Assembly (NCBI GenBank): GCA_037783545.1 | Contig: JBBELK010000024.1 | Location: 3,162,001-3,226,000 of the forward strand | Reading direction: 5' to 3' | Source of the DNA: Henricia sp. BOLD:AAB3569 | Lineage: Eukaryota > Echinodermata > Asteroidea > Spinulosida > Echinasteridae | DNA length: 64,000 bases | In this document: positions 2,601 through 60,200 of the stretch, piece after piece | How the letters are laid out: each line of letters opens with the position of its first letter | How positions within the stretch are numbered: the stretch's first letter is position 1 | Position numbers and translations under genes: made by a program | The notes under the pieces: model-generated | Seen by the model: only the letters and a program-made list of their open reading frames with translations | Told to the model about the DNA's origin: nothing | Databases searched by the model: none

Positions 2601-2723
2601 TGGCTCCTCTAACTGTACCTACAGTTAACTACTAAAACTTTCGCTTACAAAACCTTCAAACTAGTGTCCATGAACCGAATACCTCATCGTCCTAGAGGGT
2701 CTACTGACTCTACCCTGTGTCAT

Positions 2724-9110: not shown

Positions 9111-9190
9111 AGTGTGACATCACTCTTGTAACAGCTTTAGTAGTACTCTGAGATGGTGTCGATGACGACTGTTATCCCTTTGATTGCTAT

Positions 9191-30200: not shown

Positions 30201-33200
30201 ACAGGCCCTTCCTCTCTTTTATCCTCAGAGCGAAAGCCCAAGCCTTGGGACCCGGTCCCGGCTCGGTTCCTAAATCGCATCGGGGATCTGACGGTGACCG
30301 AGGGAGAAGAAGCCTTGTTCCGTTGCCAGATCGTTGGTCATCCGATTCCAGAAGTCACTTGGTATCAGGATGATGAGGTTCTCTGTCCATGTCAAGATGT
30401 CAAGATGACCTTTGACGGCCGGACGACATTTATGATCATTGCAGCGGCTTATCCTGAAGACAGCGGGCAATACACCTGCCAAATCTACAACGGTCTTGGC
30501 GGCAGGTTGACGTGCAGTGCAAACTTGAAAGTGAAAAAGATGAAGTCAAGAAAGCTGGTGCCAAAGCTACCAGAGTTTACGGAGGTATTCCATGACAGGA
30601 CAGTATCGGAAGGAACTGAGGTGAAGTTTGAGTGTCGAATACGTGGAAATCCTAAGCCTAAAGTGAGTTGGCTGTTCAACAATAAGGAACTCAAGCAATC
30701 ACCGGATTTCCTTTTCTTCCGTAAGCATAATCTGTACGTGCTTCATATCGTAGAGGCTTTCCCCGAGGATGAAGGGGAGTATACATGCAAAGCTGCCAAT
30801 TCAGTTGGTGAGACTCAATGGAGTGCTGGACTTTTTGTCGAGGAGCTACAATCCACAGTCGCGTCGCCTGCCGTTTCAACAAACACAGCCAACTTTTTCC
30901 GACCCTCCTTCCTCAGTCACACCAAAGACTGCAAAGCCATCGAAGGTGGCCCGGCCACATTCAATTGTAAAGTGACTGGCTCCCCTAAACCGGAAGTGGT
31001 ATGGCTTTACAATCAATCTGAGATCAAAGAAGACGACCACTACATTCTGGAACATGGGGAGGATGGAAGTTGTATGCTAATCATTCCGCATGCAACACCA
31101 AATGACGTAGGAGAATATATGTGTGTTGCCCGCAGTTCATTAGGTGTTGCGCATAGTGTAGCCAGTCTAGAGGTTACGGAAAGAGGTACGTCACTTCTAC
31201 ATGTATAAGTTATGTAATTCATTTCATTTGTTTTTTATTCCAACTTGGAACACCCCCTTAACCATGGGGAGGGTTACATAAACCTTTTGAAGGCCCATTG
31301 TATCATTTGCAATGACCCAATTTTGTTTTTCATGAGTTGACAAGAAAAACCTTACTAAAAATGTTGATAGCAATTGTAACAAAACACCACATAATTTGAT
31401 TTCCGTCAAAAGTGGTATTTCATGTTGGAAATTGACAACCGAAGGTGTATTTCTAAAAAGGTCCCGTGCACGGGACTTTTTTACCATCCACTTGTACACA
31501 AAATTCATATATAGATTTTCAAGGTTGCCTAAAGCACTGATGCATCTATGTAGCTAAAATTTCTTCAGGCTAGTTTACCAACATTCTTCCTTAGATATTT
31601 TACACTCTTATTCCACGAATCTGCAAAAAGTTGTATCTTGCGAATGATACATAGGGCCTTTAAACCTGGATATTTAAATATACATTGCCAGGAGGAAACA
31701 GACAACCAAAACATCCAACATTATAAGGTGCAGAGGTGTTTATTGGTGTTGACAGCAAAATTACTCCACAAGTACCAACAAACCGATGATGTAAAAATCA
31801 CTAAAAGTCGTCGTTTTGGCTAACTTTGTGAGACTGAAACCTCACTAATATGTTACTTAATTGCTTTGATTCTGGCAATCTTTGCAGTATCTGACGATGA
31901 CCAGGAGCAGGACAGCGGATACCGAGGAGGCCAGGAAACACAACTCACTGATGACTTGCCTAGGAATGGATCAACAAGTAAGTTCAATTCACGACCATAG
32001 TTAACTATGGTTTGACTTTTGGAACCGAACGCAGTTTACTCAACGATGGTTAGTCGTGTCTGGTTGACCATTTGGAACCAGCCCACAGGGCACGGTCGAG
32101 TTGCTGCAGCAATTTACGTGGAACCAGTTGACTAACTAAAGGCATTCGGACTTGCACGTTAATACGCAAGTGTGTTACGTTACCAGAATGACGTTCGACC
32201 AATGGTTGACTCAATTCGTGAATCAAACTTGCTCATGGTTATTGGTCTGTTTGCTGCAAAATATGCTTAGGGTCCAATTCACCTTAACATTTTGAATAAA
32301 ACAAATCCACCAACGTATAATGGAGAAAAAATATTGATGTCTTTACAAAGTAACATAAAGTCTTATAAAGATCACCAGTTAAGAAGAAATGTAAAATTGA
32401 ACTCCCCACTTGCAGGTATTTTCTAGTTTATTGGTATTTCTAATATAATAGAGCCCCTGGCAAGCAACCATCTTAAGGCCAGTTCATGCAAAAGTAAACA
32501 CGAATGCAAATCTGACGCCATAGATTTTGCACCAAACATTTGCGCAAGTTGAAACTAGTCCAACTTGAAACATTGGCCTATTTGTGGCACAATTTTTTTG
32601 TGACGTCAAATTCACTTTTGTCGTTATGCCTTTTTTAGTCAACAAAGTCCAACCATTTTCCACAATAGGTATGTGTAATTCTATTTTCTATTCCTAACAC
32701 AAGATATCCCCCGTCGACCTGTGGGAAAACCTAAAGTGGCCAAGATTGCTGGTGAATCCATCTTACTAACTTGGGAGACCATTTCAAACACCGATAGCCC
32801 CATGCCCTCTATCATGTACATCATAGAGGGTAAAGATGCCAGCGAAGTAGACTGGATCCTCATAGCTACCGATGTGACCGAGATGTCATATTGGGTGTCT
32901 AGCATTAACCCTGAAGGAGGTTATGTCTTTAGGGTTCGAGTTGAGGGCTTGAATGGAATCAGTGAGCCTAGTGAGGAATCGGATGTAGTGTGCCTCATGG
33001 ACCTGCGTAAGTATGCAGTCTGTATCTTGGATGCAAGGGAATATTATCACGTCAACTACTTTTCATGGATGGGTTCTATAGTTGTAAAGGATTCATTTTA
33101 TTACAAATGTGTCCTCTGTGCCTTGTAGTGTGTTTATTGTCAACGTCCCCAAAGTATGCTTGCAGTAAGGCTATATACAGTTTTTTTTGGGGGGTAGGGG

Positions 33201-36200: not shown

Positions 36201-39200
36201 ATTTGATGCCAAATGTTTTACTCAGGACAAATATGAATCCATTGCTGTATATATATATATATATATCTACAATACAACAAAGTGTTTGGTTGTGCTAGGT
36301 ATTGGGAGTTTTGAAACGCTAGTTCCCTCGGCCTTCGGCCTCAGGATCTAGCGTGTCAATTTCCAATACCTGGGGAGCTAATATTGACTATTCACCCTCA
36401 AACCATGTGATATTTGTATATTATATACCTCATGCGTAGATTCCTGTCATCTGATTGGTTAAAAGCGGGGGCATTGAATCGGCTAGACCCGGCGCGTATA
36501 TGCCCACCGGTCAATAGTCTTTGCCATGCCCCGGGCATTTAGCGGGTTCCGGACGCGCGCATTACATGTGTTAGCATAGCTATAGCTGTGCACCAACTAT
36601 GCAGCTGTGCGCTTCACGTAAACATTCATCAGGACGGTAATGGCGGAATCTCTACGTCATTTGGTCGTCTGTCGTAGATGATGAAGTCCTTAAGAAAGTA
36701 AGAGAAGTGGCCTACAGTGAAAACTGTGTCAGGTGAAATGTGCTACTTAAGTGCCAGGTGATTATGCTACAATGTTTGCTGTAAATATACAACTTTTCCG
36801 CCGTAGACCAGCTTCCGAAATCGAAACGCGAAGGACCACTGTCATGACTGTATATGATGTCTCGTTACTTTTAACCAACCAGATGACAAAAATCTACACA
36901 TTCGGTATATAAAACAAATATTGACTGCTGTTTATTCGGGTCATGGTAAAGATTATAGGCCCTCGGTAATCTCGAAGCCATGACTATGCCCCTCGGCTTC
37001 CGCCTCGGGGCATAGTCATGGCTTCGAGATCACCTTGGGCCTATAATCTTAACCCTGCCCCTCCCTGCAGTCAATATTTGTATACTATGGGATTTCTAGT
37101 TTGGCTTTAAGGGTGGATTCACACAACACTTTTCACACATCACACATGTTAATTTGATGCACGTTGTTCTTATAAAATGGGATGCAAAGATAATTTGGGG
37201 TAAATCTATTCTCTGAAAATCAAACAATGACAAAAACACTTTCAGCCTAAATTGATAAAGTGGTTTTCAGTGTGTCATTCACTCCTAATTCCCTCCGTGC
37301 CATGTCTTTGAAAAGGACTTCAAGTCTACGCGCTCAACGCGTAAAAAATTCACCCTAAGTATGACTTACTTTAACCTTTTAGATATCAAGCCATTCTTTA
37401 TGGACAGTCTTGAGGACGTATACGTCTTGCAACAAGGCACTGCAATACTAAGCTGTAAGGTCTTGTGTGAACCGCCACCTATTGTCAAGTGGTATCGTGA
37501 CGAGGACATTATTCTAAACGACGACCGGATCCAAGGAACGTACAAGGAGGATGGAACTTGCCAGCTTGAGATTAAAGATGTGACGTTTAAGGACATCGGA
37601 GAGTACGAGTGTGTGGCTGAGAATAAGATTGGCAGGGCGAGTTGTCGACTCTATCTGGATGTAGCAGGTGAGTGGGAGTTTAATTTCCTGATTTGCTGCT
37701 TGTTGAAAACAGTTGGATTTGTCACAATTTCATTTCAGTATCTCAATTTCAGTTGAAAGATTATAACTTTCAAAGTGTTTTGTACTGGGGTCGGTTTCAT
37801 GGCGCTGCTCAAGCGTTAGCTGAAAACATGCTTGTTGTGCTAGCTTTACCGCTATTTCACGACTACGACGTGCTTAAGCATGTGCGTGTTTCGAAACGGG
37901 CATTGTTGCATCACTAGTGTTTAGCAAATGTTGCCTCTGAAGCTACCAAATGTTTAGCAGTGCTTAAGGTTACGGTCTCCATGAAATAGCCGGAGCCTTT
38001 GTTAGCACAAAATCGGCTGCTAAACAGCTCCATGAAACGGACTCCTGGTCCTTGTCCAAGATTTACACTGTACACTATGAACAGCCTTTTCACAATACTC
38101 ACAATAAGTTGGGGTGTACGCAGATATTTTATTGAGGGTATGCATTCCGCTGGAATGATTTTGTATATGATTAAACAATTGTATCTGCATGACAGACACA
38201 CCTTGTCACAGGATACGCAATAGGTGAAAACAGCCATTTAAATGGAAAAACAAATCCAAATTTGACAACATACCAATATCCCTAACTTGTGAGTGGTGCA
38301 GATAGCCTTTGTACAGAATATTCTCAGAGAATGTTTATGTTTTGTGCTTCACAAACATTAAAACCGCACATCATACATTCGTTTTGCTATTCACACAACA
38401 TTTTATTTATTGCCTGAAGAAAAAAATTTTTTTTTTTAAAACTAGCTGGTAGTGTGAAATATTATGTCAGTGTCCATCTCTACATAAGATGCAAAATAAT
38501 GTATCTGCCGGTATCTTTGCTGTGAAATGATAAATGGCAGTTTGGAATCAGATATAAATGATATCGATGTTTGTCTTTTCCTGAATTATCTATACCTAGC
38601 TGAGTAAACTGTGGAATCAACCCATTATGGCTTGACTGCATTGCATCTAAAAAGTGTAGTCATTCTAATTCCAATTTTCTGAAGAAAAAAATTTAATTGC
38701 TGGTTGAGTGTCAGCATAGAAAACAAATTATGCTAAACTGTAGAAGCATCCAGAACAGAGGAGTACAGAAATGAAAATATTTAATATTTTAGGCAACACA
38801 TTTTTGTATTGGTTATTTCCTTTATAATTTTTGTTTATATGTTAAATTGCCTTATGGGTCATTCTATAAATTTGGGGTCCAATTTTTCTTTCCCTCGTAC
38901 ATCTGACATCTTGTAAAATGTTGTAGTTTGTAAATTCAGGACATATTCTTTAAATCCTCTCTATTTCAAAGAGTGATTACTTAAAGTACAATTCATAAAA
39001 ACATGTTTTGAAGGCATTTTTAATGATACTTGTATGGCAAATAGCAGTATGCCAGGTGTAACGGGGACAGAAAAATGTCACACGTTGGACCCTAAATTTA
39101 TAGAATGACCCTTATGTGTTTTGGTACATGTGTTTTGGTAGGATGTCTGTACGTTAAGCAGAAGGTCCGCGGTTCGAATCCCGGTGGAGCCAAGTTGTTT

Positions 39201-42200
39201 TTCACTGCATCCAAATTCCCAAGCTCATGGACATTTGTCCACATTTGTATTGAGCATGAGTATTAATTTTTAATAAACATTTGCATTTTTCTAACTATGG
39301 AGGCCGGAGGCCACTCAAGGGTGTGGGCTGCAGGACAAAGAATGAAGTCATAGGGATAAAAGGTATCTCCTTTCAAAATTTGGTTTGTACTGTGATGACA
39401 CGGTAGATAGTGGAGGTAGTTTCAGGTAGGCTAGGCAGAATTTGTCATTGTACTAGATGATAGCTTGTTTTTATTAGAGCTAGAACATTTAGTCTAAAGG
39501 CCCGTCTACACGAGGACCAACATGAAGTTAGCATATCTGGACTGCAGTTGGTTGCTGCCCACACATGACAGGCGTTCTTACCTGCTATTGGCCCGTTTCT
39601 CCAACAAGCTCCAACAAAGTCGGACAATTGCTACATGTTCCAACATGGACCAACTTGTTGGATGATTGTCTGGCATTGTCTGGAGTGGCGTCCACACCAT
39701 CCAACTTTATGTCGGCCGACATCGTCAGGCTCGTGTAGACAGACCTTTAGAGTTCACTTCTTTGTCTGTGCTAATATGTAGTTAATCATCTTAGAGGTGA
39801 CCTTTTTGGGTTCATGCAGTGTTGTTGTTGAGGTTCTTTCTAGATCTTTTGAAATAATGCAAAATAATCAAGTGATGACGGTAAAGAAATTGTCAGATTT
39901 GTAATTCTTTCAAACTTCAAAACTGTAATGTATCCAGAAATGTCAGAATTACATGAACCACAAACCCCCATACGTGCACTATGCATACACATATTTCATT
40001 GTCCATCTAGAACCACCCGGCATCATCAAGGGTTTCCCCGATACGAGTGCACCGGCCGGCGAACAGCTCCGTTTGGATGTTCGTATCGGTGGCGTACCCG
40101 AACCAGACGTGATTTGGTATAAAGATGAGCGCCCTCTATCACCGACTAGCAAGTTTACGTTCCTGTTTGAAGGCGAGGACATGTGTTCCCTAATGATAGA
40201 TCAAGCGGTACCTGATGATGAAGGGCTGTATAAGATGACTGCTATCAATATGGCTGGTGAAGTGTCACATTCAGCCAAGGTCACAGTGCCTGGTGAGTTC
40301 ATTGGCTTGACACAAAATCACTTGGTTTTATAACAATAAACCTTCATGGGACATTGGCAATGGAGGCAGAGGCCAACTTGGAAACTCAACAACTTTTTCA
40401 CTCAATTTCAGCATCAAGCATAGTGACCAACATGTCTCAAAATAGAAAGGTGGCAAATTGACCACTCTCACAGACGCCATCTTCTTAGGTAAAATGCTAC
40501 TGCGTATTAAACTCCATCAAGTACGCGCATGCACACCCTGGGAAAATGTTCCAAACGCGCGCGCGTGTTGCTCGAACTTTGTTCGAAATACGGCACAGCC
40601 GATGCGTGTCATAAAAATTTACGCTCAAGATCCTGATGCACGTGACAATTTGTAGGAAGTGACGTCATTTGAGAGTGATCAATAGGAGAAATTGTCAGGA
40701 TTCCCCTTGTAGTGGGAGAGTTTGAGAGCACGGACTAGTAGTCGTAACTTGCACTGTAGATAAACACCGAGCTGGTTTATCAACCTGAATGAACCTGCAT
40801 TCACATGTTTCTCAAACGGCCTTAAGTGCAGGATCTCGGGCAGAGTGGTGCACCCTGCCTCAGTGGCTCTTAAGGAGGCTGGTGCAGTCAGCCTTGTCAC
40901 AAGAGATTCTTGCAGTTTTTAAAGCGTATATTTTTAAACATAACTTTTTTTTTCTTATTTGTGTTTAGTATGAGCTTGTGTAGTTCCATCCTAACATCAA
41001 CTACTCTTCTATATCCTTGTCCTTTTTGCAGATCCTGAGCAGTATTTCTTTTCTGACAGTTCTGTAAAGATAAAGAAAGCCATTGCAGTAGAGGATGAAT
41101 ATAAAGTCTTAACTGAGCTTGGCAAGTAAGCAGATCCGATGATCGATCATGACAGGCATGCAAATGTTTAGCTGGTATCCTCTTTTTTGGTTCCTCATCA
41201 TCAGTCTAACTGAAAATTAAAATATTTTGTGCAAAACCAACTGTTGATATTTCTCTTTTTTTGACTCGGTTGCATGCCAATAAACCCTTTCACGGTTATC
41301 GACGCCATCTTGTTCACAGGGCACTTCGAACACGATTTGCATGCGAGAATCGTAGCTAATGCACAGTGACCTAACAATGCATTCGTATATAATCAGTGCA
41401 TGCACACAGCAACGCGTATTCGAACTGCCCCTGTGAACAACATGGTGTCGATAACCGTGAAATGGTTTATTATCAATCGTTCAATGAGAAAAAGTGGTGT
41501 TTAGATTGAAACGAATAATATTGATCCACCGCTTGTGTGTTTAAAGATGGATCACATTGACAAAATGGATCAACTTCTTGGATTAACAAATTTGTTGGCT
41601 TTTGAATGAGATATCCGTGTCAGTCAGAATTTATGGTGGGAAAGGTACAATTTTGGAAAATTTGCACACATTTGCATACATTTGCATACATTTGCATGCA
41701 TTTTCAGAACCTTTCTGTTTAGGGATTTATTTTGACATATCTAATCACATTTAAAAGCTTGTATTACAAGTTATTTCAGATTCAAGCATTGTAGATAAGC
41801 AGCCTACATGTAATAAACCAATTTTGTTGATGGAAACATCTTGGCAACACCTTAAATTTGGCAGAAACATGTTTTCACAATTTAGTATGCCTGATCTGAA
41901 GTATTCAAAATCGCCATATACATGTATACCATACTTTATATATTGGTTTTAACTTTGTCTCTGCTGCTATTATAGACCGTATCGAATAGCCGCCATTTTG
42001 TGGGGCAGTTCATTTGTTCCTTGAGGACATGCATGGTTGCACATATTGTGCTTCCATTGTTGAACGGTTTAAGTAACAAAAGGTGCCCCACGAAATGGCG
42101 GATATTCGATACGGTCTATACAAACTATCAAATGTTTAATTTACACAATATATGGTATGGTGCCTAATTACCGGAAATGAATCATCCAAACTTAGGATGA

Positions 42201-45200
42201 GACCCTCACGATTGATCTGTCATCCCAAGTTTGATATTTAAATTTGACATTGTGATCATTAAACAAAAATTAATTGGTGACATGATTATACTTTGAATAT
42301 TATTTTTGGTTTTCAGAGGAGCGTACGGAGTTGTGAGAAAGTGTGTGCACAAAAAGACGGGCAAGGAGTTTGCGGCTAAAATCATCCACGTTAAGAACGG
42401 CATGTGGCACGACCTGAGACGCGAGGTGTTAGTTATGGGAATGCTTGATAATAAACGACTCATCAAACTCTACAATGCTTATCAGACTAAGAAAGACATC
42501 ATCATGGTTATGGAACTGTATCCTTTTATTCATGACGGAAATAAATTCCATTCAGCAAAAATAATGATTGAAATACAGCAACTGGGTAAGTCAGTTTCTT
42601 TCTTTTTTTCATTCATTCAAGCTTTATCTGTCTTTGTATTTTTTGTCAGTTATTGTACACCACACATACAAAACAATGAAACTTTGAAAAGTAAAAACAA
42701 AGAAATTAATCTGAAATTGTGGCACTTATTTTCACTCCAATTTTGCATTAACTATGAAAATGGAACATTTTAATTTTCTTTGCCAATTGAAAAGTAAACG
42801 AAAACATTGGAATTTAAAATGTAATTATGGCAAAGTGCTGCAGTTATGTTACAAAGGACTTTGTTGCATGGGGTTACATTTGACCTCCAATAACCTTTCA
42901 TAGCCTGCTCTGCAGCAGCCAAATTGAAATTGAAACTGAGACCAACATTTTGTTTAGGACCTGGCTATACAGTTAGGTTCTATTATAATTGACCCAACTG
43001 CGTATTTTACTGAAAATAAATGCAACTAAATCATATTCAGGAGAATCAGGAATATTTTGTTGAGCATTGTGCCTGTTTAAAGGAGCGTGTTCAGTTTCGT
43101 TTTTTTTCCCCTCCAATTTGGATGTGGAAGCAAAAAGGTTGGTGTAATGTACTGCACTGCTTTATGGAACGGATAAATTAGTTTACAAAACATTTGTGGT
43201 TTTTGGACGATATCCTTGAAAATATACGGATTAAGAACCCAAACTTTCAGAATGGTAATGAGAAAAATATGACAAATGATATGGTATCAAAGTCTCAACA
43301 CCCATGGGAAAAATGGGGGGTTAAAAAAAATGTGATCTAGACACGCTCCTTTAACCACTTGATGCCGGAGGCCATGTAAACGCGCCAAGATTTCTGCATC
43401 AGTTTAGCGGAGAACTAGTAAACACATTTAGGTGAAATTTGTTTGTTACTGCTTTTAACGTCTACACTCGTAGTAATTTCTGAGGGAAATGTCCAAAACA
43501 GTTCATAAAAAAAGTTACATTGGGGTATACAATGAGAGTGCATCGTCGTAACAACAATACTTTACCGTGGATAGTTAATGAGTTCAGTTGTTTTCCTTCC
43601 TCCATGCTTCAACTAAAAATAAACCCGCGCCTAAGTACAGCAATGTCTGAAATAATCCCTGCATTACCTGGTTAACTGTACAGTACTGCATGTACTGACA
43701 CTAGAGGGCACTTTAATAAATACATGTACATGTACCAGCGTATTGTGCTGTTACAGATACCCCTCTTATTGAAGTGGAATATGCTGTTTCTGGTCACAAA
43801 GTTCACACACAAAACACACAGTCATCACACACAGGAATTTAGAACAGTCCATTGATCTAGTATCAGGGCCTTAATGCACCCACTGTACACAGCAAACCAT
43901 TATGTTATTGTAACCCACCAACCCAAATTCACCTGTTGTTATTATGAGTTTTGCTAATAATTGATTGGTTAATGGGACAACGGGGAAGTACCTGTCCTAC
44001 CTAGCTTTGGTCTATTGTTATAGATCATTGTAGTAAACATCAGAACCACCTGAGTGACCTGGGGGAACCCTATGGAACTCTCTTCATAGAGTAAGTGGTA
44101 ATGTTTATTTTCAACTGTGGAGTTGACTTTTTACTTAAGTACCACTTGTAGCCTGGGTGTGGCAAGACTTAGTGGTGAATGGCGTAGGTGGATTGCAAGA
44201 ATGCAAAATGAACTTGAACGGCAGTTGTGCCTAGTGGTAGATATACTCTTGGTACAGACTTACTCATTACTCATTACCGCCGTATTAGTTCGAATCCGGC
44301 ACAGACAGCCTAGTACTACAAGGCTTGATCATGATCCAACTTTCCACTTCAAGGTTTGTGAGCTAGGGGACATTTGTGCACATTTGTTTGTGTGTACCCA
44401 TGGTGTACCCTACAATGTACCCTACATCTGTTTCCTTGCTCTATGGAATAATAATCCCTGTGTTTTCTTGCTGTGTGTTGTATCATGGAGGAAGAAACAG
44501 GTTGTATATATTGTGTATATTTTGTAATGCAGGCAGATAGTTCCTGTTCATGTTGGCCTTGTGTCTATACCATGTACAAATTAAACCATACCCAGGTTTA
44601 ATGCACAGTCAATACATCATCAGTATACTAGCGACACTAGACAGTGGTTTGTGTTGGTAGACATATGTGTGGGATAGTTTGTGGTACATGTATATGTTCA
44701 TTTTTATGAACAAATTTAATCGGTACCCTTATTTCACTTTGTACAAACAAAGGGCATGTTCTTCCCAAATAAGAATCTGTGCAAACCAATGTGCATAAGG
44801 GAAAAAAAAATTTTTTTCGAATAGACAGTATTCCTGAACGCGTAAGGCGCTATCAAGTGGCCGCGCCCATCGTGCGTTATGTTCGAACACAAAACGCGCT
44901 ATGCGCGCACCGCCGTCCCAAACGTTTACTTTTAATGGCTGGGACGGCCCCGCGCTCCGCGTACGCTATTTTTCCCCACGGACGTACGTATATATAATTC
45001 TCCCATTTTCCACTGTCAAACTGGGCATTTTCCCCCAAGTCATCTAGTTCGAGCGCCCTCACAGGAATACGGTCTATTGGCTTATTCCAAATGTATTCCA
45101 CTTCAGAATGGCGTCTTAATAAATGCGCAAACCACAAAGGACCCAGCGACAAATGCCAGGATAATAAAAAACACAGCTAGAAATAGCAGTGAGAGTTAAA

Positions 45201-48200
45201 CAGCTGGCAAAGTCTCTCAGGGAACTGCAGTTGATGCAGGACTTAATGATTTGTGACATGACAGCGTTTCAAAGGTTATGACTGCCCATCATTCTTCCCC
45301 ATGGCTCTGGCCGTTTATGTCCGCTAGTTCTACCTTATGCACACTGCGCATTCATCATAACATAGGCTATACACAAGTTCAAAGTATATTTTATCAGGTG
45401 CATGAGGCCCTGATATTTGTAGGGGTTTTCATGCAACAAAATTATTGTGTTATGGGCCGTCCAAAGTTATCGACATTTTCACAGTTCTAGAGAAGTATTT
45501 TTCAAGACCTCCCCTTCCTCCCTCTGAAATACGTACTACTTATAAACATTTTTGTCACTACCATGAAATGTCAACATTTTAAAGTCCTATGCAGCCCTCG
45601 ACCTACCTCCCCCTTTGTAGAATCATGACAATTTTGGATTGCCCCTTACAAGACAAATGTGTTACAAAAAGCTCAATAATTTCAACCATTTTTGTATAGT
45701 TGATTAACAAGTCTCTAAGTTTTACTATGTATTTATACCCCCCAAAAAAATTCAGTGCAGACATGGCTTGCAGGGTTCTGTAAATACCGATTGGTCTTGT
45801 TAATTGAATCTACATGTAGTAATTTAATTTGATTGTTTGTCTTGTGAAATAATTGAGTCATCAGGTTCGTTTGTCTTTTAAATTGTTTGCCCAAAATTCC
45901 AGCTTGTAATTCACACTAGTGTGAAAATGAGGTTTTTGTTATAGGAAACGGCAAATGCAACCCACTATTTCCTTGCATATGTTCATAGCAGTTTCCTGAT
46001 GTACGTTTACATGTTCCTAGTATACCGAGCAACAAAATAATGCAACATTTTCTCCACTTTTTAATTAAAAAGTGGAGAAAATTTTGCATTCTTACAGTGG
46101 GAATTTTTAGCACGCAGAAGCTTTATGCAGTCAAGCATAACGAAGCTGATGTGATTACGTGTATTTATATATCAACTTGATTATACATTTCCCAATTCTT
46201 CAATTTTAGTGTAATTTTGGATAGGCCCGGCAATAATTAGGACTAATTAATCAAGCATCTGTTTTCATAAATGACATCTAATTCTGCTTGTTTTCAGATG
46301 AAATTCAACTCATTTTATTGTAAAAAGTAATTGACATGAGACTGGTGTAGGACAGTTTATACACTTCTTATGTCTGACAGTACTGCATGATTTATGAGGT
46401 CGCTGTGTGATTATAGGATCAATTGATTAAAACCAGTTTCACTTCCTGCTTTGAAGGCCTAGTTCATTCAGAAATGGGTCATTCCATGAAAAACGGGACA
46501 CAGAGAACGATTACCCTCAGCATATAAAGAATATATGACCTCATGAATCGAACACCACCTTTATCTGTTGATACTACCCAAAACATAACGAGAATGATTA
46601 AAAAACTAGTGTGATCTTCTAAATGCAAGTGTGACATTTTGAAACTTTTGCTCAAAATGGAACAAAATTCGCTCATAATGTAATTTGAAACGATAAATTC
46701 CATATTCTACAGCTGGGTAAAATCAGCAACTACCTTTTCCAGAAAGAAACTGGTCAAAAAGACTTGAAATGTAATCGCAACAGATGAAAAATGCCTAGAG
46801 TTCCCCCTTACGTCGTGAACAAATTTCTTGACTATGCTACCAAGACATGTCTAATACCCTTTGTAAGTTATTTCAAATATTCTACATTATTTTGCACATA
46901 AATTTAACTTGAAAAGACAATTTTTACTGCATCAAAATGTCACATTTTGGCTTCTCTTTTTATATTAGTTCAGACACTATACTAAAAGTGACGTACATGT
47001 AACTTTTATTCAGTCAAAACACTCAAAATTGTATCTTGTTTACATACATATATAGATCTTTTTAAGCACCAAAGTGGTCCAATTCTGGTCTATACGTGTA
47101 TGTAGATGACCAAAGATGGGCGGTTTGCAGAAAATGTAAAATAGACCTTCTGGTAGTAGTATGGTGTTTGGACAGTTATCACACATAGTCTAAGGGATTG
47201 TCAAGATATCATGTTAACTTTCTTAAAATGCTGGTTAAACTCGTCTCTGTGACAATTTTTGGCGAAAACACTGAAGGGTTTTAAAAATGGTGTCAAAACC
47301 AGTTTTTTGTTTTCCCGTAGAAGATAAATTCTGGAGCTTTGCATAGAATATGGTTAGTTTATATTTTAAGGATAATGACATTGGTAATGTGTACCTGTAT
47401 GTATTTGCTTTAGTAGTCTATTGCTTTGCAAAAATGGGTTAACAGTCAATAGACCGTATTCCTGAACGCTTGAGGGCGCTCGAACTTGGGGTGATTTGTG
47501 GGGAAATGGGGGGCAAGTCGCGTACGTGGAGTGCAGGCCCCTGGTGCGGGCACATATTTCCATTAAAAGTAAACATTTGAAACGCGCAGCGCGTAGCGTG
47601 TTTGTGTTCGAACATAACTTGCGATGCACTTGACAGCTCCCTCATGCGTTCAGGAATACAGTCTATTGTAATGCACACATGGGTTGCCAGTGTAATGTGT
47701 AAAGGAAATAAATTTCGTACTTAACAGATTTTTCTGCTGAACAGCTTTATGAAATCATTCCCTGGTGGCAAAATAATTTGTAATAATTAAGGTCCTCCCA
47801 GGTTTTTTATGTATATATTAATCCAAAACGTGACTTTCCTTGACCATATTTTGACTCAGTGTCTCAGGAGGTGAACTGTTTGAGCGGATTGTATCTCAAG
47901 ATCACATCACAGAGACTGAAACTGTGCTCTTCATAAAGCAAATCATTGAAGGCGTCCATCACATGCATCAAAAGAACATCGTCCATTTAGACCTCAAGGT
48001 AATGATGTGATACTAATTAGGCCATGCACCGAGTTCTCACAAGCCTGCACAAAAACTTGTGTACAAGCACAGATATCTATTAATAACAAGATAAGAAACG
48101 ACTGTGTTATTGAATGGCACATCACCGTAACCAGTTTCAGGCAGCTTGGAACGCGTGTGCGTGTAGCGCGTTTTGTGTTCGAACATAACACGCGCGGTCG

Positions 48201-51200
48201 TCACAAACATTGAGAAAGTGCGCATGCGAGAGGTTTTACGTGTAATTCAATGGGGAAGTGCCCAAAACCATGCAAATGAGGTGCCCAAAAGTATGCACGT
48301 AAGGTGCCCAAAATTATGCGCGTACGGCCTCCGTTTCCTATCTTGTTGTTAATAGATATCTGTGTGTACAAGTGAAGTCTGTGGATCTCAATTTGGACAT
48401 CTCACAATAAATAGCGCCACCAAGCATTTTTAGTCAGAGAGGGAAGTGCGGTCAACATCGGTGTATTAGTTTATTGCACAAACAATTTTGAATTTGATTT
48501 GAATGCGATTGAAAGTTGTATACTTTATACAAGATTGTGCTATTCAGGATTTGAAATGTCTGTATGTAAAAGGCTTGTTTTTTCTCATTTTGTCCACAGC
48601 CCGAGAACATTCTGCTAGTGTCACCCGATTCAGATGACCTCAAGGTCATTGACTTTGGCTTAGCCAGAGTGGTATCCCCAGATAGGGATGTTATATGCAA
48701 GTTTGGCACACCAGAGTTTGTTGCTCCAGAGGTTGTGTGCAAGCAGCCTGTGACTACAGCGTCTGATGTGTGGAGTATTGGTGTCATGGCGTACATCTTG
48801 TGAGTATAGACTACTTCTTAAATTTTACCTGGCTAAAGCCCGCCGCACACCTTTGCGATTTACCGGATACTTGGATCAGCGGACCACATACCGGAAAGGT
48901 GTGTGCTGAAACAATTCGACGGGCCGGTAAATCGCAAAGGTGTGCGGCGGGCTTAAAGGGCATTACGAAAAAGTATGTCAAAATACCTTTCTTGCTAAGA
49001 AATTTTTTCCCCATGAAAACGACATGAAAAGTCAAAACATTTCAACTAACTCTTCTGGCAAATTTTTATTTTTAATGCATTTTCAGTGTACTTTCACTGT
49101 GCTAATCTCCAGAAAATCATAGGGATTCCGTGGAAATTTTATTGTAATTTCAGTTGAGCAAACATTGGGTCTTGGTATTTTTTTCATCTTGTTTTAAATC
49201 GTCAAATTGCCACTAGACCACACATTATCTCTAATACTGTATTTACTTTTGGTCCTGAAATATTGCAACCTATCTACCATTATATCCTTGCCTCGTCCAG
49301 ATTGAGTGGAATCTCCCCTTTCATGGGTGAAGATGACAAACAGACATTACAGAAAGTCAAACGTGGTTACTGGGACTTTGAGGATGAGGTTTGGGACGAC
49401 ATATCACAAGAAGCTAAAGAGTTTCTCAAAGCTGTCTTAGTCATGGATCCAAAGTAAGAAGTTTTCTCTCTTTCAGTCTTGTGACTTTGCCATTAGTGAG
49501 GTTTTGCTCATAATGTAATGTAATGTAATGGTGGACACTTGTATAGCACACTTGTCTACCTTAGGGTACTCCTGGCGCTGTTGCCATTAACATTATCGCT
49601 GCCATCAGGAAATCACCAGAACCATTTCGCTTCAACTAGGTGGCTACCTGGCCAAGGCGCACAATCCTATCAGCAGTTAGATTGTGGCATTTCCCCTAAC
49701 AGCTCCCCAAATATCGCTTGGGTTGACGAGGCAATTGAGATTAAGTGTCTTGCCCACGGACACAAACACGTTGGCACAAGTGGGGCTCGATTAACCCATA
49801 ACCCTTCGATCACGAGCACGGCTGTGTACCTACTAGACCACATGTCTAGTGGGTATTGTGCACAATTACAGTGAACGATTACATGTGAACATAACTGTTA
49901 ATATTGATGAACACACTAAATTTGGTTTTCACTGTGTGACTCTACCTGTACATTTATCAGCATCTAACAGCTGATTTTTCATGCTTTCAGTTTCATTTAG
50001 ATATAACTCACTAAATTCAATTGATATTTATAGAAAATATATCAAAGAGAAACAAAGTGTACAAAATGTATATGAAGCAACAAAAACAAAATCTGCAAAA
50101 CATGTATCCATTTACATGTATGTGTGTGCAGCCAATAACCATTGTCAACATGTTCATGAAAACATGTGTGCAACAGTGTCGGGTTAAACAGGAAGTGCTT
50201 ATATCTGTGTCAGTGCGAAACCTTTTCAATATCCTTCTTGGTTGGATGTTTCTGGTACAAACAATGAAATCCCTTTCATGACATGTGCACAAATGAGGTT
50301 ATAACAAGCTCTCTTTTGTTCATCTCGCTATAGTAGGAAAGAATTTGGTCGATATTTTCTGTCTTTTGAGTACTTGCTTTTATCAGTATTTTGGTGGCTG
50401 TTTTTTTTATTTCCAGGAAAAGACGAACATTGGATCAGTGCTTGCAACTTCCCTGGTTGAAGGTATTCTTAAGACATAAATTATTGATGTAGATATCAAC
50501 AAAGAAAAGGCACACAATTTCCCCACTTTTTCATTGCACACAGAAGCTTTATGCAGTCATGCATAATAAAGCTAAATTGAATATTCTTCTGAAATCCATC
50601 ATCCTGTGTGAAAGTTATTATTTCTTACAAATTTTCGAGCGTAACCCGCTCCTCATCAGGTAAGACTGAATAATAAAGCTGTTGTGTGAATATTTTGATG
50701 TCAACTTAATTAGAAAACAAAATCTTCAAATTTTACTTAAACTGAAAAGTTGCATTTGTTGTTGTTGCTCGGTATATATCCAAGTTTTTAGGGTAAGAGG
50801 CAAGTGTAAGACTTGAGGCTGTGTAGGGGGTACCGGTAAGAAAATTTGCAGACACCCACTATATGGGGGTTGGGTGGAGGGGGTTGTAGGTCCTGTCGTT
50901 TTAGACTGTTTGAAATGTTGTGCAGTTACAAACCGTTGATACAACTTTCAGCATTTTGAATGTTTATTTTAAAGCAACACAGACTTGTACTATTATGTGA
51001 CGACATAATTTAGAATCCTCTATGATGTATAGATTTTTGTCTTATTTCAGTTTGATGAACGTCATGACCAGGGTGTTGCCAAACTCAGCACACAGAGACT
51101 TAAGACATTCAACTCAAGACGAAAATGGCAGGTAAGAATGGCACAGACATTACTTACATGATTGGTAAACTGTTGGTAAAACGGCGTTATTTCCACTGAG

Positions 51201-54200
51201 TCGAGAAAACTGCCATGTAGAAATTTCAGCCACATAGATGCAGTAATACTTCAGAAAACCTAATGAATCCATGCATGTTTTTTTGTGTGTGTGTTAATGA
51301 ATGGTAAAAAAGTTGTCTGCAGACAACTTTTAAAAGAATAATATGCTCTGCAGAATCGTGAAAATGTTGACAACATTGGACGGCCCCTAACTGTAATATG
51401 TTGACAACATTGGACGGCCCCTAACTGTAATATGTTGCTTTTTGCAACTCTGCACCATAAATCCTTTGAATAAATGAGAATAATCTTGGTTTCCAAACTC
51501 AGAAAGCTCTTACTGCCGTGAAGTCTGCCATGCGATTAAGACGTCTTTCCAGTATTGCTGCAAGTGATATCAATGCCTTACAGCAACGACGACTCCAAGC
51601 CAAGGGTCAGAGGTCAAACTCGGTCACCCTGGGGGATAAAGCCAAACCCCCACAGACAGACGATGGGGAAGGAGGGGACACAGGTATGGGGACTGGGTTC
51701 CTGGCATGCTCCTTTACGGATGTCGACCTTCAACTGGCTGCATGGTCCGATATTGATGTTGGTATCCAGCCTCTTCCTTGCATACTTGATGACAGTATGG
51801 GCACCAGTGATGCTGATGATGACTATGCATGTTTGATGGTCCCTCCCTTTAAAGCACACAGCACTTTGAGTAATCCCATGCATGGCACCAAAATCCACCG
51901 GAAGCCAGCGACTAAAGGTATGCAAGTCCTTGATGTAATATGTGATGCATGTGCCGTTTTGAACATTGCATGTCAGTTGGACGTCGGCGCATTGTGCGTT
52001 CGCTGTACTTGTGTGCATGATTTGTGTCGTTGTTGCGAGCGTGTATTTTGTGAACCTGTGCAAGATTTGGTTGGTAATTCGTCTGTGATTGTTAATAAAA
52101 CTACCCAAGCAAATGTGGACCTGATAGAGGAAAAGAGCCTCACTCATTCAAACTGTAGTGCAGACAAAGATGTGCTTTCTTCAGGTGTAATTAGTGGTTA
52201 TGCATCTCACAGTGCACTTTGGTATTTACAAGGAAAAATGTCCACAACTATGGAAAATATTGTGATTGTCAAAGACGCTGTTGAATTATTGCAAGGAAAC
52301 ATCAACGTGGAGAAAGCTTTGCCACTTAAAGATAGGACCACAATACATGTTGTAAATAGCTCAGACTTAACAATGGTATCGTGTGAACGAAAGTTTGCCG
52401 TCAACAACCACTTAGTTTTTGGGAATGATGACTACACTAAACCTATGATGACATTAGCTGTCTGCTATACGGAGCATGTTCCTGATTTGGATCTGGAAGC
52501 TGTTCCACCCAGCGAAGCCGCTGCTGATCTTGAAAACATGAAACACGAAAATGGAAAGGCGGAACATTTTACCTTTGACATTGGCGTTAATGGAGCAGTT
52601 GGGAACGAGAAAAAGACGGGAAAGTTAACCCATGAGGGAGCAGGGAAGACGATTTGTAATGGAGAGGAGGAAGCAACACAAAATGGAGTGGACGGGTCAC
52701 TAACTCGGGAAGAAACCAAAGGAAAAGTCGGCAAAGCCAACTGGGGCACTGATAAAAGCATTCCGTCTCAGTCAGAGCAAACTGATCCAGAATCGCTGAG
52801 TCTTGAGCTGAATATTCAGAAACAGGTGCATCCAGGCGTGGCCGCCTTCTCCAAACGTCAGTGGTCCAAGTCCAAACTAGTACTTCCATCCATGTTAAGA
52901 CGTATTCAGGAAAATCGATCATTATCCACTGAGGAAATACCTCCTGCTGAAGTCGCCACTGCCCAAAAAGAAGATGTAGATCACAACTCCAACAGTTCCC
53001 CAGCTCTACCCCGCAAGCTGTCCAACAAGTGGTCCAAGGAATCCATGGACTCAGTTGATTTTGAAGAAGAGGAAGATTTAGCGGAAGAAACGGCTTCGGT
53101 TTTGCCCGATATCATGGCTGTTGATTCTCGCCATTGTGCCGAGAAAAGACGTCGAAACAAGATAGAAGTTGAAGCACCTCAACAGCCTAAACTACTGAGC
53201 ATCACGGAACTGATGCTGAAACACAGCCGCGATAGCAAGAAGAAGAAAGACACGCAGTCAAATGGAAGCAGTCCGCAGAAACAAGACTCTCAGAAGCTCT
53301 CGGTAAATGACAAAGCTTCCAACTCAACTGGAAAGAGTGCAATCCTGGGCAGACTGAGGTCTGTTTCGTTTAACGCCAGCCAAGAACTGGAACTCAAAGG
53401 CCACTTAGATTTCTTAGTGTGTCAGGTTGATGATCGTTTAAATCTTGATCAGGTCCCAAAATGGTTTCTTCTATGGTATAATCGCTGGGTGCGGTTAATC
53501 GCAGGCATAGTCTTTGGCATGGTTATGGGGATACTTTGCCGCATTGTGTTTTGAGGGTTTCAAAAGTACAAAGTTGGATTCGCACCACCATTAGGCTTGG
53601 TGCCCTTTTTTGTTTGCTTGTTTTGTTTTGTTTGTAAATGAAAAACAACAATTGCTGAACTTGTTAGAGGATAAATCAAGACCAAAACTAGAAGAAGGGG
53701 TGCGGGGTGCGGGTGCGGGGGGTTCCATGGCCCCTTCAGACTATTACATGCATGAAAGTTCATTATTTAATTTAAATGCTGACATGTGTGCTATTGTTGA
53801 ATATTTGTGTACTTTTATAGCTGGCCACTATGTAATTTATTTTTGTGTGTAATCTAGACATCTACATGTATTTTAATACAGTACTATTAGATGTGTTAAT
53901 GTTTTGTGGTAGCTTAAAAGAGTAGCACATTGTGTCTACAACATGTAATAGTTCAGAGTGAAACTCAGTCTTTGTAGTCTTTGACATGAACAAAATGATG
54001 CATGTGCGTGTCTGCATTCAAAATGTTTATTTGCACATTTATTTCAATATTATAAACAGTGTACAGTGTTTCATATTTTTTTGTATGAATGTATGTATTT
54101 TTATAATGCATGTACTTTTGAAACTCACTTTAAAAATCACTCTGAGATCACTATAGACCGTATCAAATAGCCGCCATTTCGTGGGGCATTTTCTTTGTTC

Positions 54201-57200
54201 TTTGAGGACATGCATGGTTGCACATATTGTGCTGGCGGCTATTTGATATGGTCTATAAAATAAAATATATTTGAGCAGAGGATGCATTTATAAGATGGGT
54301 CATTGAAATGACATTACACTCTACTGCTATTCTATTGGACATACTAACATTTTTGGACATTTCATATTTGACTCGACAAGCAAGTAGTGAAAAGACACAC
54401 CAAAAATCAATGAATTATAGGGCAGTTGCTGCATAGAATACATGTAAATACTGAAATAAACAATAATAGTAAGGTAAATATAAATGTTAAATAAGGGAAA
54501 AGAAAACAATTCACTGACAATATAAAGGAGTGTTGCAACTAACGTAAACGAATGAACAGATCTAGAGTTATCAAAATCATAATACCGGTATGGGCAATTC
54601 CACGGTTAGTTTAACGTTACATATTTAGCCATTTACTTGTTCTGTCCTCTGTTACATGTATATCAACACGCAAGCCTGTCAGTTCTCCATTTCGGTACCA
54701 TCAATGCATCTCATCAACATCTGCTGGACAGTAATAACTAAAATTATTTAGCCCCATTTTGTGAATTGTAATAAAGATTTAAATCTTGGTTAGTAACTTT
54801 ACTTTTTTTTAACGTTACTTTTTTTGTACTCCAATTTTATATAAAAATATAAAATGCAATACTTTGCCCAGTTGTGCTCCCATGCACCACCGAGAGAAAA
54901 ATTTGGTTTATAGGAATTACCTGAGTGAGTATACCACTGTGCCTCATAGCTTAGCTGGTAGAACATCTGCCCGGTGAGTCAGGGGTCTTGTGGGAAAACC
55001 TGAGTGAGTATACCACTGTGTCTCATAGCTCAGCTGGTAGAGCATCTGCCCGGTGAGTCAGAAGCCTCATCACTGAGCAAGATTACTGCAAATAATGCAC
55101 TCAGCCTTAAAGATCGGTGTAAGACATTTTAAGGATACCCCATTGCATTCTTTGTACTAATTGCAATGAACTGGGTTTGAGCATGTAGTGAACAAACAGC
55201 ATGTGATGAAGCCTATTTGCTTGATATGATTGTTCTGATATGGATCGATGTTCCTTTGATCTAACCCAGCCTGCACTGTGGATTGAAGATGCCTCGTCCA
55301 GAATGGTAATCATTTGATTTGATTTGATTTCTAACCAAGTTGTAACCGATTGTGTGATTTGTCATCATTATTACTTGATTGAGTTTGATGTGACTTTGTG
55401 TCAGTCATACAATGCATTTTTGTGTTTTATGTGGTTGACCAAGAATATCATCAGTACATATTTCCACTTGTTTTCCAAACTTTTTTTTTAAATTTTTCGT
55501 TTGAAAGGTTTGAGATTTTCTTGACACCTCAACAAAAATACAACACATTGGTTCATTGTGAACATTTTATAAGAAATCTCAGATCTGCTTTTAAAAGCGT
55601 AGATCAAAACAGTGCTGCTGTCATGAACAAAATACATGTAAGGTTCCCACATGTCCTTGTCGTCTGACAATCTGCAATGCGATGAAAGTACACTTTTTTT
55701 GGAAACTATTAAAAAAAAGCGGTGCTCTAATTTCAGGCAGTGATTTATAATTTTTGGTGCTTTAATCAAGGGCAGTTATTTTGTGATAACTTGGACATTT
55801 CTTATATTTTTTTCCGGTTAAAATTTACTTTGGCCATAACATAATTCCCTGCTTATTCCCTTCAGAAGGCCCTCCGGTTTTCTCCAGTCATTTAGAGAAA
55901 GCCATCATCATCAGAGGCAACGACCTCAAGTTGACATGTCAGGTCAAAGGTCAATCTCCGACCACATTCACCTGGTACCGTAATGACAAAGAGCTTGCTG
56001 AGGGAAAACGTGTTGAGCTGACATCGGACAAAAAGGGGAAGGGATCATTGGTCATTTCAAGAATGGAAAAAGACGAGGAAGGAATGTACAAATGTGTGGC
56101 TACTAACCAGCATGGCAGTGCTAGCAGCTGTACAAAGGTGGTCGTCGTTGGTGAGTACTGTCTATTTACATATATTTGATTTAATGAGTTAACGGTAAGG
56201 GTCAAGTTTGGTAATCACCCTCCAAAGAAGTGACTGAATTTTTTTCTAAAAGCTTACTTGTTATCAAGATAGTAATGGTAGTAATCATCATATGAAATTA
56301 TTTCATTTGAAGTGCTCCCATTGATGAGAAAAATGTCAAAACTATTTGAATCACCATGAGCCATTTATTCATGCACAAGAACCATGGTTTGATTTTTCAG
56401 GTTTTCTGAAGTATTACTGCATCTATGTGGCTGAAATTTCTAATAGGAAGTTTTCTCAACGTAGGCTTTCAATTACCAGTGGAAATGATGCTGATTTTAA
56501 CACTTTACCAATCATATAGTTTACCTTTAAAGAAACGTCAATTCTTCTACCAAACATGAGCGCAAAACTAACAATCAACAGTAGACTCTTAACAATATTG
56601 AGTGCTTACCGGCTGTTTGTATTGGACTTAATTTTGGTTAAATTAGCAACAATCTCAATAAGTTTTACCAAAAAGAGAAAAACGAAAAGCCTTGCGGACA
56701 CGGCTTCAGTTGTATGTGCTTTTGTTCGAAGTGCACTGAAAAATGCAAAGTACCAAAGAATTACTCCTGTAATTTTTTCCATCTATTAGATAAACCAGAA
56801 GCTCCAACTCGACCCAAGGTATCTTTAGCTGCAGCGACAGAAGCAGTGGTGACGTGGAAAATCCCCGCTAGTAAAGTGACGATCACTGGATTCAGATTAC
56901 AGAGCAAGAAACAAGGTAAGTCTTGATGTCACTTGACATAGCAATAGATCCAAACATTGAACCGCTGATTGCAAAATTTAGAACGCGTGCACAAGTAGCG
57001 TGTTTTGTGTTTGAATATAACATGCGCGATTGTCACAAGCATTAAGAAAGTGTGCACGCGCGAGGTTTGACTTGTAATTCAATGGGAAGGTGCCAAAAAT
57101 TATGCAAATGAGGTGCCCAAACCAATACAAATGAGTGCCCAAAACCATGCAAATTACCCAAAAATATGCTGATGAGAAGGCGCGGTAATGCGCGACCTGG

Positions 57201-60200
57201 CTCCGTTTCAGTTCTAGCTTTTAATGGAGTTCTGTGCCCAGCACTGAGTACAGGCCAGACAATGTGTTTGTATTATTACACGCCTCTTTCTGATTCTCAA
57301 TCCTGACTGGCAAAAACGCAATTACATGAGGTTCACTAATATAGGCTAGTGCATGAAATCTGTTCCAGCATGAACTACATGTAGACGCGCGCCAAAACTT
57401 TAAGCATGCGAGTAATTTGTTGACTAGTGTTCCTCACTCAAAAACTAGTGACCGGTTCCTGAGCCCTTTGGAGGTTGCCAACTGTGTCAGTGAACAGCAA
57501 CTCCGAAAACTGAAGCTAAGAAGCCAAAAGTTTCCTGAGTGACAAACTGACCCTTGTTGAAATGCTGTTCAAAAGCCTACATGTATCAAACGCCTATTGA
57601 GGAAATGCTTTTGATCAAATTTAATGACATTTATATTTTTGGCTAGAGACATGTTATAAAACACATGGACTGGCATAATCCGGTTACCAGTGCATGTCTA
57701 TGTGTGGACTGTGAGTGACCACAAGAGGGTCCTATTTCCTTCGGCCTTCGGCCTCAAACACGACCCTCTTGTGGTCACTTACAGTTCCTCGGGGCGCATA
57801 GACGTACACTATTGACCTCATTAGCAGTCAATATGTGTGTACTATTGTATCTCTATAGATGACAGACAATGGAACCTCACAGATGATAGGATCCAGCAAT
57901 GCTTCATGCATGTATCTCCACTGCTACCATCGACCGAGTATAGATTCCGTGTGGCTTGTTGCACGGATAATGGCATTGGTCCATACAGTCGCTCCTCGGT
58001 CCCAGTAACAACGTTAGCTGTTGGTAGGTCACGCTCTCAATCTTTGTTGTGGATTTTTGCACAATGCTTTATAGCTCAGTTGGTATAGCATCTGCCTGGT
58101 GAGTCATAGGTCTCGGGTTCAAATCCCGATGAGGCCTACGTAATTTTTCTCTTATCCCATGTTTCACTTCAGTGGTGATTAAGCGCAATATCATATATTG
58201 CGTTCATTACTTTGCCCAGTATACCACTGTGCATAGCTCAGCTGGTAGAGCATCTGCCCAGTCTTGGGTTCCGGGTTCAAATCCTGGTAATATTATATGC
58301 ACCATACCAAATAATGCATTTATTACACATGCTACAGTGATTAATGTTCATTACAGCAGAATGTTCGTTATTGTGATTTTTCACTGTCCAACACTAGCGT
58401 CTTGTCCAACACTGGCGTCTTTTCTCTTTCTGTGTCTAGGTGCACAGCCTCTTAGCATAGATGCCATTTCTAAATTCCAGACATTATCAAGAAGCTGCAG
58501 TCTAGACCAAGATCGTAAATCATCCTCCAAGGAGGTAGTTCTTGGGAACTTTTCCGATGGAGATATTGAAGAGACTGTTGATTTAAATCTTAAGGACAGT
58601 CTGCCACAGAAGGCGTATGACTTCAACATTGAGATTGGCAGGTGAGTATCTGTGTAATCATTATTCATAAATACCCAAGACAATTCACCAATTCCTACGA
58701 GTCGAGAAAATGTCATATGGCCGGTCTTAAATAGACAATAAAGACAGTCCGGCCCAGGTTTAAATGCTTTCAAGATAATGAATTCCGTTTTAACCTAAAA
58801 ATCATGTAAAATAACTGCCCCCACCAAAATAATACTATTCATGGGAGGAAAACAGGAAATTTGCAATCTCCAATTTGGAAGTAAAAAGGTTGATGTAATC
58901 ACTGCACTGCTTTATGCAACTGGATAAATTAGTTTACCACACCTTTTGGGTTGTTGATATCATTGAAGGTATACTAATTGAGAGTGCGAAATTTCAGAAC
59001 GATATTGAAAGAAATATGACACATGATATGATATCAAAATCTTATCACCCATGAGGGAATTAGGGGGAGGGGCGGAGGGGGGTGGGGGATCCATCAAAAA
59101 AGTGATCTGGTCAAGCTCCTTATTACGTCACAGACCTTGGTCCGTAGTGAAAGAGTTAATGGATTGTTTTTTCTTGTATTTCATCTACAGAGGTAGATAC
59201 GCTGTAATGCGGAAGTGCTATAAATACACCACTGGCAAAGAACATGTTGCCAAGATAATGCTCTCCGCTGAAAAGCCAAAGAAGCAAAATCTCTCTGAGT
59301 ATGAAATCCTGAAAGAACTCAACCATCCAAACATCCTCCAGCTCCGTGATGCTTTCTTGACCAAGCGGTTTTATGTCTTAGTGACGGAGCGATACTACGG
59401 AGGGGGCGTTATGAGCTATCTCATACACAAGGACAAGTACACGGAGGAACAAGTCGTGCGATTGGTCAGACAGCTACTGAGCATGCTCAGTTATTTGCAC
59501 AAGAGGAGAATCGTTCATCTAGACTTGAGACATGATAATATTGTGCTGGAGAGTCGGCGACGGGATACGATCCGTGTCATTGATTTTGGCTCGGCACGGA
59601 GGATGGCGAAGGACGATGGAATGAGGATTAAAGGTTTAGATTCACTGCCGGAATTCATGGGTATGGAGTATTAACCTTTATCACGGTGTGTCCATCTTTG
59701 TCTTGTTCCCCATAGTACGCGTCCGGCACGATATCGGTGTGACTGCGTGCAATCTTTTGTTGTTGTTTTGGGAGAATCACTGTCTGTACTGCGCGTTGTC
59801 TTGATCGCGTCAGCATTTGTCATTGTGATACATACAATGAGCATTTTCATCACGGGACCACACTATTTTTCCTGCAAGCCTCGCTTTGGTTACGGTCATT
59901 TGAATAGGGAAAAAGGGAACATAGCCGCACCGCGATAAAGGTCTACTGTGAATGTTACCGCTCTTCATTTGATCAATTTTTGTTAACCACTTCGCCATGG
60001 GGGAACTGCATATACAGTTCTAACTGGAGTGTCTTGGGGGCGGTTATACAGAATTAGCCCATGAATTAGACCAGGGCAGAGCTGGTCTCTTATCTTGTTG
60101 GCTCTGGGTCAAGTCAGTTTTTGGTTTTTGACCTGTGACTTGACTCTAGAGAAAATGACTTGTGACTGGACTTGGGAAATAAGATTGATTTACGACTTGA

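Follow-up and report, generated by a model that had tools for sequence, protein, structure and literature searches.

The window, that is, the whole stretch of 64,000 nucleotides of the sea star Henricia sp. which was analysed here (contig C24, positions 3162001-3226000, of a searched assembly of 740.7 Mb), carries a gene which, judged by its domains, is obscurin/SPEG/UNC-89-like. The domain order is Ig/Fn3, PK1, MLCK-like segment, linker, Ig, Fn3-like exons and PK2 (Table 1). Both features by which the family is recognised are present: an Ig/Fn3 array ahead of PK1 and the tandem order PK1 - linker - Ig - Fn3 - PK2, where Fn3 was assigned by look and disorder by composition. The array comprises five I-set stretches detected with Pfam in the open reading frames 30192-31205 (three), 37289-37753 and 39929-40330, and a borderline Fn3 match in 32679-33125 (23.4 bits, slightly below the cut-off of 25). 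Downstream of PK1, Pfam recognised I-set in the frame 55790-56176 (1.2e-20) and Pkinase in the frame 59027-59671 (2.4e-30), and the Fn3-like label of 56790-56915 and 57859-58023 comes from their position and look. Modelled donors were defined by open joined frames and scored, like the acceptors, with approximate matrices. Exon 41032-41125 is followed by a donor GTAAGC at 41126, and the joined frame from 42317 is open up to the stop at 53554. The intron 42518-47859 within PK1 looks U12-type: its donor is GTATCCTT, and ahead of exon 47860 a branch site resembling TTCCTTGAC is visible by eye; the intron is required for the motif MELVSGGELF, and its read-through is rather long (85 codons).

Table 1. 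Coordinates in the window of the tandem-kinase gene and of its proposed alternative ending
Feature	Positions	Strand	Basis
Exon preceding PK1 (DPEQYFFSDSSVKIKKAIAVEDEYKVLTELGK), with N-terminal linker and beginning of PK1 glycine loop	41032..41125	+	by eye
PK1 core exons 42317-42517, 47860-47998, 48600-48799, 49301-49453, 50417-50462	42317..50462	+	
PK1 end and start of MLCK-like regulatory segment (...STQRLKTFNSRRKWQ at the junction)	51051..51131	+	donor 51132 scores 6.89
Exon common to both forms: rest of calmodulin-like segment (KALTAVKSAMRLRRLSS) and linker, 138 codons	51503..51917	+	
Read-through part of proposed composite terminal exon	51918..53482	+	open frame, codon signal, composition
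Predicted C-terminal hydrophobic helix RWVRLIAGIVFGMVMGILCRIVF with GxxxGxxxG (53504-53530)	53483..53551	+	prediction
Stop TGA	53552..53554	+	frame read
Proposed 3' UTR to third AATAAA	53555..54775	+	inference only
Ig domain exon, phase-1 acceptor, long-form partner of donor 51918	55866..56150	+	joined frame open
Fn3-like exons 56790-56915 and 57859-58023, then exon 58440-58641	56790..58641	+	joined frame open
PK2 exons 59191-59660, 60633-60708, 61066-61215, 61645 to TGA 61919-61921	59191..61921	+	joined frame open

The common order PK1 - long polar linker - Ig - Fn3 - PK2 of the obscurin/SPEG/UNC-89 tandem-kinase region is thus shared by the sea star gene, and so is a PK1 nearest to the MLCK/twitchin kinases. 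The joined PK1 matched best MLCK4 (4.7e-79) and twitchin (7.5e-79) among PDB sequences, of which 156 distinct ones reached 1e-40 or better (the best 60 of the 156 listed). The catalytic motifs of an MLCK-type kinase (AAK, HLDLKPEN, DFG and APE) are all there. According to passages of PMC10129394, PK1 of invertebrate UNC-89 is a pseudokinase while mammalian PK1 has the catalytic motifs; in this respect the sea star kinase resembles the mammalian one and contrasts with that of UNC-89. The segment which follows PK1 contains the calmodulin-like peptide SRRKWQKALTAVKSAMRLRRLSS, which aligned with residues 1-25/26 of the calmodulin-binding peptide of skeletal MLCK (2bbm_B) in a weak match (13.8 bits, E = 0.81). 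A calmodulin-binding segment after PK1 has been reported in mammalian obscurin and SPEG, as stated in part of PMC10129394, and the sea star gene has a possible counterpart at this place; calmodulin regulation of PK1 is plausible.

The exon 51051-51131 (ending ...SRRKWQ) precedes 51503 in phase 0, with the splice junction located within the MLCK-like segment, SRRKWQ/KALTAVKSAMRLRRLSS (the slash marks the splice site). The next donor, AAAG/GTATGC at 51918, has a score of 4.12 and phase 1, and a second candidate donor of the same phase lies at 51684 (4.91). When 51503-51917 is joined through donor 51918 to the phase-1 acceptor 55866, the frame is open for 721 codons through the Ig domain, the Fn3-like exons and PK2, and the TGA at 61919-61921 ends this tandem-kinase form.

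If donor 51918 is passed over, the frame stays open as well. The stop-to-stop frame 51470-53554 comprises 694 amino acids, and from the acceptor 51503 (phase 0, ...ccaaactcag/AAAGCT) 683 codons lead to the TGA at 53552-53554, the terminus being a strongly hydrophobic stretch, RWVRLIAGIVFGMVMGILCRIVF. The initial annotation had drawn attention to exactly this frame, directly after PK1 and with a hydrophobic end, and both its existence and its placement hold. A point absent from it is that the gene continues downstream to Ig, Fn3-like exons and PK2, so the end at 53554 is an alternative ending. Beyond donor 51918, 545 codons are open, for which the chance is about 5e-15 at 5.8% stops per triplet (as in the presumed noncoding parts of the window), and read-through at the 13 other modelled donors of the gene, all those tested between 42517 and 61215, gives only 1, 1, 1, 1, 1, 3, 3, 4, 9, 9, 9, 21 and 85 codons. 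A frame open by chance is ruled out by these two figures. The product of 51918-53482 is polar for the most part and carries R/K-x-x-S/T motifs, which number 18 in the 683 residues. Pfam and PDB searches with the 683-residue product gave no match at E up to 10, and on contigs of prokaryote genomes the search pattern matched five stretches with no relative among them. Directly past the skipped donor, at 51941-52051, there is a cysteine-rich patch with 10 Cys in 37 residues (counted by eye), where codon usage is noncoding-like.

The coding signal is uneven along the read-through. In 52463-53422, eight windows of 40 codons have scores reached by 0-5.3% of open noncoding windows (scoring based on nine of 30 kinase loci), and 3-base periodicity is marked (p = 1.8e-7). 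A second scoring used 12 of the 30 loci (16 were skipped by the frame finder and two duplicates dropped) together with exons of the gene itself, and its null consisted of stretches of at most 60 codons; the noncoding reference set was taken from window pieces presumed noncoding. Codon usage is noncoding-like in 51917-52183 (0.46 of the null at or above, periodicity p = 0.026) and in 52184-52462 (0.44, p = 0.005), and for the 43 codons at the end it points neither way (0.20, p = 0.12). In the reverse frame, 52463-53422 scores almost as high and these final codons score higher. Because the scoring favours some reverse frames and few loci served for training, it is a blunt measure and weak evidence for the tail.

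The tail itself is distinguished by hydrophobicity. Among the final 31 residues, the best stretch of 19 has a Kyte-Doolittle mean of 2.43, and elsewhere in the 683 residues the value is at most 1.56. The initial annotation had proposed transmembrane prediction on the C-terminus as a check, and a hydrophobic helix is indeed predicted: residues 661-683 have a Hessa-type insertion energy, computed with approximate parameters, of -2.23 kcal/mol, and no other segment of the 683 residues scanned goes below +2.48. For comparison, 133 stop-ended frames of at least 31 codons were taken from window pieces presumed noncoding; none of them reaches -2.23 and four reach 0 or below, while by Kyte-Doolittle 11 reach 1.6 and one reaches 2.4. 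Base shuffles of 53423-53551 keep a Kyte-Doolittle value of at least 2.4 in 1.1% of the open ones. Genome searches at the DNA and protein level found tail and frame here and in the other haplotype only, among the best candidates scored, and a repeat origin of the tail is ruled out on this ground. GxxxGxxxG is a pairing motif, and its occurrence in the predicted helix suggests pairing within the membrane. The core of 15 residues is followed by RIVF only, with Arg flanking both sides; such a short core with Arg on either side is as compatible with the mitochondrial outer membrane as with ER/SR.

It is fairly probable, on gene structure and prediction, that the exon from 51503 is a composite terminal exon from which an isoform with PK1 alone and a tail anchor at its C-terminus is made. 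The short form has its observed basis in the open frame, the splice phases, the lack of a good phase-matched exit donor and the predicted hydrophobic helix. A membrane-anchored PK1 form, as the initial annotation had suggested, accounts most simply for the gene structure, and its proposed regulation by calmodulin is plausible on the weak peptide match (E = 0.81); the proposed ER/SR is one of two candidate targets, the mitochondrial outer membrane fitting equally.

The frame could instead be an exon for a long linker between the kinases of the tandem form, continued to the Ig exon by a weak 3' donor or a small bridging exon, in which case the hydrophobic end would be chance read-through of the intron; this is judged unlikely. 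The length of the frame is close to that of known interkinase segments: disordered segments of typically 150-650 residues are given for obscurins in parts of PMC10129394, and 647-742 residues for the springy segment of UNC-89 in parts of PMC12812942 and PMC7957886, where the obscurin segment is described as phosphorylated by kinase 1. The codon signal, too, weakens past 53422. Phase-1 GTs in 52463-53554 number 11, of which 52857 scores 0.0 and the other ten, among them all those past 52857, at most -3.5; the 12 modelled U2-type donors of the gene range from -0.53 (50463) to 8.97, and the existence of so weak a donor as 50463 counts for the linker. No U12-like or AG/GC[AG]AG-type donor was present in the stretch scanned. 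The lack of a donor above 3 from the read-through is in itself unremarkable (codon-shuffle P = 0.19). Since GTs out of phase at 52826 (1.8), 53489 (1.8), 53359 (1.2) and 53303 (0.4) have scores that overlap those of the gene's own donors, the interval 53560-55860 was searched for bridging exons 20-600 nt long whose acceptor scores 0.35 or more (n = 8). With donors of at least 2 (n = 10) none was phase-correct in this interval, and with donors of at least -0.6 (n = 23) there was one, 55034-55118 (85 nt, acceptor 1.0, donor 0.1), which restores the phase for those of the four GTs that are phase 0; this sole candidate, however, overlaps a tRNA-like repeat (by eye). Exit by a phase-matched donor or a bridging exon was judged unlikely. 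Besides, an exit at 52857 leaves 231 open codons unexplained (P about 9e-7), and by insertion energy the tail is more hydrophobic than all 133 noncoding frames. With no good phase-matched donor and one weak bridging exon, the stop at 53552 is taken as the likely, though not certain, end of the read-through form.

A variant which is compatible with the composite terminal exon, and which is regarded as improbable, assumes that the short form loses a 267-nt intron, 51918-52184, which is in frame and has phase 1 at either end, with the ending unchanged. Donor 51918 (4.12) and an acceptor at 52185 (0.62) are phase-compatible, the latter no outlier beside the modelled acceptors 51503 and 57859 (0.4 and 0.6), and codon usage inside the interval is noncoding-like; nevertheless, its 89 codons are open with a chance of P = 0.005 and contain weak 3-base periodicity (p = 0.026).

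Hydrophobic ends are common in translated noncoding sequence. It could accordingly be supposed that the transcript is real but a by-product of premature polyadenylation, the hydrophobic end leading mostly to quality-control degradation and not to a working membrane kinase, and the 11 of 133 noncoding frames which reach a Kyte-Doolittle value of 1.6 speak in favour of it; this seems quite improbable, however, as 320 codons with coding-like usage stand ahead of the tail and the 545-codon frame stays open. A nested gene of its own in the 3' half, which would begin for example at ATG 52250 and encode a tail-anchored protein without kinase, is highly improbable: in-frame ATGs in strong context exist at 52250 and 52373 and the codon signal starts only at about 52463, but the frame runs on unbroken, and in the same phase, from the exon upstream of 51918, and the 111 open codons there have a chance of P about 0.001.

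For the composite terminal exon, we infer transcript end, disorder, insertion, orientation, target membrane and regulation as follows. Use of donor 51918 (or 51684) would lead by splicing to the Ig exon 55866 and so to the long form with PK1 and PK2, and donor 51918 would be in competition with cleavage inside the next intron of 3.9 kb. As putative signals for this, AATAAA hexamers lie within this intron at 54259, 54455 and 54770. Where the donor is skipped and cleavage takes place in the intron, translation would continue to 53554, and the short product would consist of PK1, the MLCK-like regulatory segment, a mostly polar, probably disordered tether of about 550-640 residues and the C-terminal helix. 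The helix would be inserted post-translationally as a tail anchor, with the kinase facing the cytosol, and the choice at the donor would set whether PK1 shares the tandem protein with PK2 or is placed on a membrane by itself. It is possible, though doubtful, that the choice between splicing and termination at 51918 shifts an active, calmodulin-regulated PK1 to the membrane as a tail-anchored kinase which pairs with itself through the glycine zipper and is held by a disordered tether of ~640 residues; such a tether, stretched out, would measure about 230 nm (0.36 nm per residue).

Short MITE-like elements with inverted ends (ATAGACCGTATCAAATAGCCGCCA) are seen at 54151-54256, within the proposed 3' UTR, and at about 41971-42120, and repeats resembling tRNA-derived SINEs (CATAGCTCAGCTGGTAGAGCATCTGCCC) lie at about 54945-55080 and 58070-58260 (by eye).

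A muscle Ser/Thr kinase with alternative tails is already known in DMPK, which belongs to a different kinase family and is without Ig domains. In the DMPK splice isoforms A-D, as described in passages of PMC2778554, alternative C-termini choose between a membrane (ER or mitochondrial outer membrane) and the cytosol. This is a clear parallel; if the reading is true, the sea star gene would resemble DMPK, whose alternative tails set the organelle (PMC2778554, in part). Within the obscurin family, obscurin is tied to the SR through small ankyrin 1, according to parts of PMC12812942; this link likewise takes obscurin to the SR, but the membrane protein is a partner there, whereas here the predicted helix is in the kinase chain. 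SPEG kinase 2 acts on SERCA2, an SR calcium protein (passages of PMC12812942, PMC10129394 and PMC7957886), which again places a family kinase at the SR, but it is PK2 and not PK1, and own membrane insertion is unmentioned in those passages. The word transmembrane is absent from PMC12812942 and PMC10129394, a PK1-only form with a membrane helix is not described in the accessible part of PMC7957886, and no report of a tail-anchored or intronically polyadenylated obscurin-family isoform was found in the literature searched, which was available in part and largely without subscription journals. In comparison with obscurin/SPEG/UNC-89, the sea star gene differs in that one reading of its linker exon ends in a predicted membrane helix without PK2. 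Why proteins of this family keep tandem kinases is called unknown in a passage of PMC10129394. If true, a chain with its own anchor beside PK1 would separate the two kinases through an alternative ending, and the Ig array together with the tail would make a family member which bridges myofibril and membrane by its own chain, the ankyrin adaptor being unneeded. It would also offer a simple route to testing PK1 alone at the membrane, and the interkinase region would be a possible protein end as well.

The other haplotype is most probably represented by contig C103, on which the main blocks of the region recur with about 88-99% identity, interrupted by large gaps. Within the frame the two differ by six substitutions (three synonymous, three non-synonymous), none of them in the tail, and by no indel; they are too alike, so the comparison is too shallow to show selection. 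Within 50667-60242, the haplotypes differ at many sites as far as about 51030 and at few beyond about 51700, which suggests a recently shared haplotype block across the 3' part of the gene. Elsewhere in the window, a minus-strand frame 2727-9119 (2131 amino acids) lies in 2260-9726 and is flanked by repeats 2260-2544 and 9442-9726 whose listed translations agree; this has the look of an LTR element, and 2010-9782 is missing from the other haplotype. On contig C955, three COX1 matches are spaced 16,221 bases apart, and by this spacing the contig probably holds tandem mitochondrial genome copies, an assembly concatemer. COX1 of the assembly shares 355 of 447 residues with a bovine sequence; in this alignment AAA falls on Asn at 8 of 8 positions, TGA on Trp at 11 of 11, AGA on Ser at 3 of 5 and ATA on Ile at 10 of 18, which is the mitochondrial code common to echinoderms and flatworms, and the degree of identity speaks for an echinoderm.

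A search for RhoGEF, the middle part of the SH3-RhoGEF-PH module that marks obscurin as against SPEG, gave matches at C24:3099215-3101696, on the same strand and about 60 kb ahead of the window; as MLCK-like kinase exons intervene, the RhoGEF may belong to another gene. Over about 2.70-3.22 Mb of C24, the matches listed include many I-set, several kinase, MLCK-like kinase and RhoGEF ones, all on the plus strand, with the gene at the end. This looks like a titin/MLCK/obscurin-type cluster in an echinoderm, in agreement with the clustering in chordates described in part of PMC12198301.
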